Shown here piece after piece: positions 16,579-16,695 of a stretch of 44,679 nucleotides of DNA. A model generated the notes under the pieces. The model searched no databases, was not told the origin of the DNA, and saw only the letters and a list, made by a program, of their open reading frames with translations. Numbering within the stretch: the stretch's first letter is position 1; each line of letters starts with the position of its first letter. This DNA is from Acidimicrobiaceae bacterium (GTDB taxonomy: Bacteria; Actinomycetota; Acidimicrobiia; Acidimicrobiales; RAAP-2): the NCBI GenBank assembly GCA_003160115.1, contig PLQL01000024.1, positions 103,872 through 148,550 of the forward strand. Direction: 5' to 3'. The translations under genes and the position numbers were made by a program.

Positions 16579-16602
16579 AAAAAACCCCCGCCATGGCGGG
16601 GG
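16579..16602 (-). terminator. attenuator terminator in the leuA leader
   Basis: On the minus strand CCCCCGCC-AT-GGCGGGGG is followed at once by six T. It is a textbook intrinsic terminator located between the leader peptide and leuA, 34 bases before the leuA ATG, so it must be bypassed for leuA to be transcribed. Confidence 0.85.
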
Positions 16603-16606
16603 CGTC

Positions 16607-16626
16607 GGGCGAGCAGGTGCTCGCCC
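16607..16626 (-). promoter_or_regulatory. leader hairpin upstream of the leuA terminator
   Basis: GGGCGAGCA-CC-TGCTCGCCC is a perfect nine-pair stem that begins right at the leader-peptide stop codon. Its GGGCG arm could alternatively pair with CGCCC at the base of the terminator, and GCGAGC inside the leader-peptide codons can pair with its GCTCGC arm, so mutually exclusive structures are possible. Confidence 0.65.
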
Positions 16627-16661
16627 TATCGAAGCAGTAGCTCGCTCTGACCAATTGACAT
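16626..16661 (-). CDS. leuA leader peptide, MSIGQSELLLR
   Basis: Eleven-codon ORF between the leuA promoter and the attenuator terminator. It ends with three consecutive Leu codons (CTA CTG CTT), one Arg codon and TAG. Slow translation at the Leu codons would report low charged tRNA-Leu to the folding leader RNA. There is no ribosome site; the ATG sits six bases after the -10 box TACAAT, so the message is predicted to begin at this ATG. The codon choice, position and hairpins together make chance unlikely. Confidence 0.8.
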   Translation of the reverse strand: MSIGQSELLLR

Positions 16662-16667
16662 AGCTGC

Positions 16668-16695
16668 ATTGTACCGCGGTTTTGGAAATTGTCCA
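16668..16695 (-). promoter_or_regulatory. leuA: leuA promoter
   Basis: On the minus strand TGGACA (five of six consensus bases), a 16-base spacer and TACAAT, then six bases to the leader-peptide ATG. The expected transcript start coincides with that ATG. Confidence 0.7.

Follow-up and report, generated by a model that had tools for sequence, protein, structure and literature searches.

The leuA gene of an Acidimicrobiaceae bacterium (assembly GCA_003160115.1, contig PLQL01000024.1) is preceded by a very short open reading frame that ends in a run of leucine codons, and by two hairpins, the second of which resembles an intrinsic terminator. The question raised by this locus is whether these parts make up a leucine attenuator and, if so, by what means a ribosome on the leader could act on the terminator. 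We addressed it in a window of 44,679 nt (the whole stretch of DNA that was analysed, to which all coordinates refer) and by comparison with related genomes. The home genome assembly comprises 1.9 Mb, and the closest named relatives of its LeuA belong to metagenome-assembled genomes of Acidimicrobiaceae and Acidimicrobiales, the best of them at 91% identity.

Table 1. Features of the leuA leader region and of the related ilvB element in the window
Feature	Position	Strand	Detail	Basis
-35 element	16690..16695	-	TGGACA	sequence
-10 element	16668..16673	-	TACAAT	sequence
Leader ORF	16626..16661	-	MSIGQSELLLR and stop; ATG TCA ATT GGT CAG AGC GAG CTA CTG CTT CGA TAG (16661-16626, 11 codons and stop)	sequence; Leu-ending leader ORFs in relatives
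Regulatory codons (Leu8-Leu10)	16632..16640	-	CTA CTG CTT	sequence; codon-blind detector; synonymous variation
P1 hairpin	16607..16626	-	8 bp, 4-nt loop; GGGCGAGC-ACCT-GCTCGCCC; begins on the last base of the leader stop codon	fold, covariation
P1-T gap	16604..16606	-	3 nt	short gap also in relatives
T, predicted intrinsic terminator hairpin	16584..16603	-	CCCCCGC-CATG-GCGGGGG; 7 G-C pairs (16602-16585), extra G-U pair 16603/16584	fold, covariation
U tract of T	16579..16584	-	six T	sequence
leuA Shine-Dalgarno-like motif	16550..16557	-	GGAAAGGA	sequence
leuA, 2-isopropylmalate synthase	14871..16544	-	ATG at 16544-16542	TIGR00970, 795.5 bits (cut-off 697.4)
Related element before ilvB	27080..27195	-	-10 TTAGAT; GTG leader VTTRNIALSVVVGAWRR and stop (27183-27130) beginning 6 nt downstream of it; weak stem CCGGT/ACCGG (27136-27109) overlapping the stop codon; terminator 27107-27086; T6 27085-27080	sequence; ilvB by TIGR00118

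The first-pass annotation of this DNA had listed a minus-strand promoter, a leader peptide of 11 codons with three Leu codons near its end, a nine-pair hairpin from the stop codon and a GC-rich terminator with six U directly before leuA. Promoter (with a spacer of 16 nt between the two elements) and leader peptide are read directly in the sequence. The first hairpin (P1) does start within the stop codon and has eight pairs, a ninth leaving a loop of 2 nt; the second (T) is indeed a hairpin followed by six T, a run that ends 34 nt upstream of leuA. By eye, TGGACA recurs at the equivalent position in many leuA upstream regions of the same genus. Since the leader ATG lies 6 nt downstream of the -10 element, i.e. 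at the expected transcription start, the leuA leader ORF is probably leaderless, a point absent from the first-pass annotation. In 63 of 105 elements (one having been dropped), a TANNNT motif ends at a distance of 5-8 nt from the start assigned to the leader, as compared to 14 of 2060 random upstream positions; this figure is inflated because leader starts, unlike control positions, were picked with a preference for a -10 match. Past the U tract, the stretch GTTTCTCG (16578-16571, minus strand) appears by eye to be conserved in many elements of the same genus, even though it lies beyond the terminator.

The layout is not a chance arrangement, as confirmed by its folding energy, by covariation and by its rank in the home contig. 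The 87-nt leader RNA folds at -42.0 kcal/mol, versus -29.0 ± 3.3 kcal/mol for dinucleotide shuffles (z -3.9; none of 200 as low), and P1 and T form together in the equilibrium fold. In an alignment of 100 sequences (the 106 distinct leuA elements described below minus six removed by hand, L120, L104, L114, L092, L119 and L108), 98.2% of the cells in P1 and T hold standard pairs, and 10 of the 15 pairs are altered on both sides, values that none of 500 shuffles attains. A detector blind to codon identity, which requires a terminator, an abutting hairpin (gap 0-7 nt) and a short ORF with its stop codon at the foot of that hairpin, gave the leuA site the top score in the 218.6 kb of home contig examined (58, the next of six weaker sites scoring 45).

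Each of the 61 genomes searched yielded a LeuA match (in several of them a distant homologue only), and 80 named LeuA loci were retained for comparison. A search requiring at least two Leu codons, P1 near the stop codon and T within ~25 nt, with a Leu-P1 spacing of 5 preferred, found the layout in 117 of 129 leuA loci, giving 106 distinct elements; among the 12 loci without it, two show a leader by eye (L034, L048) and two are incomplete (L051, L129). The codon-blind detector matched 101 of 116 distinct leuA upstream regions, and the last five codons of the leader hold at least two Leu in 101 of these 101 matches and at least three in 97. This supports the leucine leader-peptide attenuator originally proposed for leuA. 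Synonymous Leu codons vary at the equivalent leader position among relatives, as would be expected if the leader peptide is read. The element is absent upstream of leuA in one genome of the same genus (G022, locus L024; 1.3 Mb), and a covariance model found no match in two others (G114 and G185, 1.7 Mb each).

This model, built on leuA elements (an origin inherited by all the matches fetched with it), gave matches in 165 of the 296 genomes from the class and in 59 of 396 genomes in a sample of the phylum, 28 of the 59 being outside the class; 2 of 20 stretches fetched from outside the class look false (L232, L233). Downstream of the examined matches stands leuA (in one of two kinds), leuS, ilvB or cimA, except at L221, L230 (where the match lies at a contig end), L232 and L233. 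These genes were named by NCBIfam for nine proteins including the LeuA of the window, by reading-frame start for the rest of the first 20 stretches, and by similarity for the next 38. Leaders of leuA and leuS carry Leu runs, those of ilvB a mixture of Leu/Val/Ile codons and those of cimA Ile runs; as read from these sequences, leader codon identity tracks the pathway of the downstream gene. With genes found independently of the model, the codon-blind detector matched 13 of 30 cimA upstream regions, all 13 leaders having at least three Ile codons, and 12 of 30 at ilvB, where nine leaders hold at least three consecutive Leu/Val/Ile codons and the remaining three (L268, L275, L288) have one Val-Leu pair and, in two cases, none. 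At trpE, none of 30 upstream regions was matched. P1 sequences at ilvB mostly differ from those at leuA, so that spacing seems to be conserved more than sequence. The window itself contains a related element before ilvB, with an apparently leaderless leader that includes Ile, Leu and three Val codons and with its terminator one nucleotide after a weak stem. Most Val-run ilvB leaders of the same genus, including that of the window (L189), are visible by eye and missed by the strict detector.

A chance ORF ahead of an ordinary constitutive terminator is one alternative account of the locus, short ORFs being common. It is contradicted by the codon run, the synonymous variation, the swap of codons with the pathway and the conservation of the structure, and we regard its probability as negligible.

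In 45 elements obtained with no spacing preference (from segments drawn from a Leu-codon search), the last Leu codon lies 3-6 nt from P1 in 44, and the P1-T gap is 0-6 nt, likewise in 44. In the larger set, where spacing was preferred in the search, the former distance is 3-7 nt in 101 of 106 elements (5 nt in 61), and 104 of the 106 have a P1-T gap between -1 and 6 nt, the two outlying gaps (11 and 13) resembling misplaced terminators. A further 56 elements, in which T was sought within ~30 nt of P1 and branched-chain codons were favoured, gave a gap of -1 to 6 nt in 55. Counted from its end, the stop codon is separated from T by 19-40 nt (median 25), with at least 20 nt in 100 of 102 elements (four dropped from the 106; the background for this distance consists of only three other terminators).

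Two attributes of a ribosome-mediated attenuator are present, namely a leader ORF with codons for the amino acid of the pathway and, on the strength of sequence and covariation, a predicted intrinsic terminator before the gene. A classical attenuator would have in addition an antiterminator pairing, formed by RNA that a stalled ribosome sets free to pair with the 5' arm of T. Two alternative pairings had been put forward in the first-pass annotation, and both proved to be at shuffle level: GCGAGC of the leader with GCTCGC of the first hairpin (63.3% of cells paired versus 64.4% in shuffles) and GGGCG with CGCCC at the terminator base (66.9% versus 66.2%). A helix scan, which carried no significance test, revealed no pairing of the T 5' arm outside T that combines high pairing with covariation. 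It did return two candidates of four pairs with a covariation measure similar to that of P1 and T. The U tract is one partner in each of them, the other being the T 3' arm (pairing 0.91, measure 0.061) or the stop codon/P1 foot (0.76 and 0.086); both involve loosely aligned tail columns, leave the T 5' arm untouched and were disregarded. A helix between the Leu codons and the T 3' arm was considered as well. It is paired in 82.5% of cells versus 80.8% in shuffles (10 of 500 as high), and in the scan its high pairing goes with little or no covariation; since, in addition, a stalled ribosome would block it, giving the wrong sign, it was rejected as an antiterminator.

The RNA upstream of T was also evaluated in single elements. 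Its pairing with the T 5' arm reached p<0.05 in only 3% of 102 elements (the 106 less four dropped). A similar test applied to E. coli leaders detected the antiterminators of thr (p 0.00) and his (p 0.03) and missed those of trp (0.09) and leu (0.31), so that its sensitivity is partial. The mean pairing energy between this upstream RNA and the T 5' arm is -9.2 kcal/mol, slightly better than the -8.25 kcal/mol of shuffled sequences, and the native RNA beats the shuffle mean in 32 of 45 elements; in the same 45, the leader beats it against the P1 3' arm in 31 and against the T 3' arm in 28, a mild excess. At the leuA leader of the window, a duplex of -10.2 kcal/mol is possible between the P1 5' arm and the region of the T 5' arm, compared to -16.4 kcal/mol for T. 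A weak or lineage-specific antiterminator may therefore exist in keeping with this excess, and the classical mechanism draws support from the same figures and from the detection of thr and his. Against it stand the lack of conservation of GGGCG/CGCCC, the 3% of elements with significant pairing and the absence from the scan of a covarying helix with the T 5' arm. Overall, with partly sensitive tests finding no conserved competing helix exclusive with a terminator arm, and with T forming at a probability of 1.00 in the masked folds described next, we consider the classical mechanism quite improbable; since its pairing was looked for and not found, the element is classed as a variant of the attenuator.

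Folding with a ribosome in place (mask reaching 15 nt upstream and 10 nt downstream of the codon in the A site) gave for P1 a probability of 1.00 with Leu8 in the A site, 0.75 with Leu9, 0.30 with Leu10 and 0.00 with Arg11 or the stop codon. T stayed at 1.00 under every mask, with the ribosome on the Leu codons as well as on the stop codon, and here, too, a classical pairing antiterminator finds no support. The masked folding that had been suggested as a check thus revealed a response to ribosome position, in P1, and left T unchanged throughout; within this calculation, what ribosome position is predicted to switch is P1, not T. The parts, their spacings, codon identity and conservation come from sequence and comparison, and the ribosome position that leaves P1 intact from calculation.

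Taken together, these data make it likely that the leuA leader is a ribosome-mediated transcription attenuator responsive to tRNA-Leu with P1 as its switch, whatever the coupling between P1 and T. The position of the ribosome on the Leu codons very probably decides the fate of the terminator. As to the coupling, P1 and T share no strand and no conserved competing helix was found, and for these reasons we tentatively propose that folded P1 and the stalled ribosome may block T by proximity rather than through a shared strand. The leaderless ORF of 11 codons would be transcribed from the A of its ATG onwards, and a ribosome would begin to translate it at once. When charged tRNA-Leu is scarce, the ribosome would halt on the Leu codons with its front edge at or just inside the foot of P1, and P1 would fold. 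When leucine is plentiful, it would reach the stop codon, its footprint covering the P1 5' arm and keeping P1 unfolded; the open P1 strand would then act as a spacer of ~22 nt between stop codon and T, allowing T to close and terminate. Once folded, P1 would stand end to end with the stalled ribosome on one side and T on the other, all within a few nucleotides, so that the bottom of T could not close inside RNA polymerase. That folded P1 should favour readthrough, presumably upon starvation, follows from the logic of attenuation, given that P1 is predicted to be open with the ribosome at the stop codon when leucine is plentiful. The model prefers the first Leu codon as the stall site, because a stall on Leu9 or Leu10 already opens part of P1.

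Published observations in E. coli bear on such a coupling. Termination at tR2 is almost lost when a ribosome stands a few nucleotides ahead of this terminator; a minimum of 10-15 nt of free RNA has been suggested as a requirement; and known attenuator terminators are said to sit >20 bp from the leader gene (PMC4824070). In the present element, such a spacer would be provided by the open P1 strand with the ribosome at the stop codon, and P1 folding during a stall would take it away. Against the proximity model, no calculated result, in the plain fold or under the ribosome masks, sets P1 in opposition to T, and clusters of hairpins less than 15 nt apart have been proposed to terminate as well as single ones, which disfavours a purely steric action of P1 (PMC8355165).

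Two other couplings are compatible with leucine attenuation in which P1 is the switch. P1 alone might be the antiterminator, a hairpin flush with T not fitting the exit channel of RNA polymerase whether or not a ribosome is nearby, and the ribosome mattering only by opening P1 when it is at the stop codon. The short P1-T gap, kept almost everywhere, agrees with this possibility, as does the rarity of such a hairpin elsewhere, only 2 of 11 terminator-like sites in the examined stretches of the home contig having one, the leuA element being one of the two. The proposal that adjacent hairpin clusters terminate well (PMC8355165) speaks against it, and it predicts constitutive readthrough without translation; we hold it to be unlikely, if the more plausible of the two. 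The other possibility is that P1 acts as a pause hairpin, giving the ribosome time to draw level with RNA polymerase, the switching being kinetic or due to a factor (NusA, Rho). P1 is strong and placed where a synchronising pause would help, and coupling on short leaders is said to depend on pausing (PMC4824070). Pausing would leave both the start of P1 at the stop codon and its close contact with T unexplained, and we judge it rather improbable.

If the proximity model is extended to the other genes, the elements at leuA of two kinds, leuS, ilvB and cimA could form a class of branched-chain attenuators, in Acidimicrobiia and some other actinobacterial lineages, that work by geometry only, no strand being exchanged: P1 would fold only with a ribosome stalled on the codon run, the spacer would collapse, and ribosome and P1 would block the abutting T. 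We regard this generalization as conceivable and, on balance, doubtful.

How does this element relate to known systems? With the attenuators of enterobacteria (thr, his, trp and leu of E. coli) it shares leader codons for the product amino acid, a terminator before the first gene and the position of a ribosome as the signal. Enterobacterial attenuators are built from overlapping pause, antiterminator and terminator strands, and their leaders have Shine-Dalgarno sites. In contrast to them, two separate, abutting hairpins are present here, no conserved antiterminator was found and the start is probably leaderless. The polycysteine attenuators of mycobacteria, reportedly leaderless, have a short ORF that ends in a codon run, as in our case; Seliverstov et al. 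saw no conserved terminator-like hairpin in the mycobacterial cys leaders, according to the available part of that paper (PMC1262725).

Most of the Actinobacteria studied in 2005 carry upstream of leuA another device, the LEU element, a pseudoknot whose base stem joins the Leu run to the leuA Shine-Dalgarno sequence and for which the accessible part of the source describes no terminator (PMC1262725). Common to both are the gene and a short ORF with a Leu run. Unlike the LEU element, the present leader has a strong, covarying terminator, and its Leu run CUACUGCUU shows no complementarity to GGAAAGGA of leuA; the arrangement is thus distinct from the LEU element, as the first-pass annotation had suspected. 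A LEU-like control of leuA translation, through RNA structure or a binding protein, is for the same two reasons very improbable at this locus, notwithstanding its prevalence in the Actinobacteria studied in 2005 and the presence by eye, at two loci of this order (L046 and L047, families f24 and f18), of a LEU-like leuA leader with no terminator in place of the two hairpins. From these two cases, seen by eye, LEU-like and two-hairpin control of leuA seem to replace one another within one order. The Rfam model Leu_leader (RF00512) scored 15.3 bits (E 1.8), below its gathering cut-off of 50 bits, and neither the window nor 20 related loci contained a match to any Rfam family at gathering score.

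Closer parallels come from Streptomyces and Corynebacterium. In S. lividans, the leader peptides leuL2 (MRAVRLLLSEPR) and leuL1 are leaderless and contain Leu codons; the leuA leader has no typical terminator, and the leuS leader has a hairpin with a U stretch (PMC8079986). A leader peptide with Leu codons, probably leaderless in our case as well, is common to our element and to the Streptomyces leuS and ilvB attenuators; the S. lividans leuS leader is set apart by description only, no two abutting hairpins at the stop codon being described in the part of the paper available (PMC8079986). The ilvBNC operon of Corynebacterium glutamicum has an actinobacterial branched-chain attenuator with leader codons and a terminator, as here, and mutational analysis favours for it three hairpins, with terminator and antiterminator sharing a GCC trinucleotide (PMC11857589). 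No description of the two-hairpin layout was found in the literature covered, which was partial (including PMC1262725, PMC13236596, PMC11857589, PMC8355165, PMC8079986 and PMC4824070).

Textbook attenuation relies on RNA strands choosing partners. If two separate hairpins suffice, attenuation would be simpler, easier to evolve and readily overlooked wherever a search demands an antiterminator. It would also become clear from the layout how one scaffold can serve leucine, isoleucine and mixed branched-chain control by swaps of codons, and the layout offers a natural test of ribosome-RNA polymerase spacing as a signal. For a class known here mainly from metagenome assemblies, the elements provide a regulatory map.

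A related arrangement was noted at one of the matches outside the branched-chain genes (L221, positions 61-170), where an apparently leaderless ORF of 9 codons with no obvious codon run precedes a P1-like hairpin and, directly next to it, a terminator; the downstream ORF is presumably aminotransferase-like.
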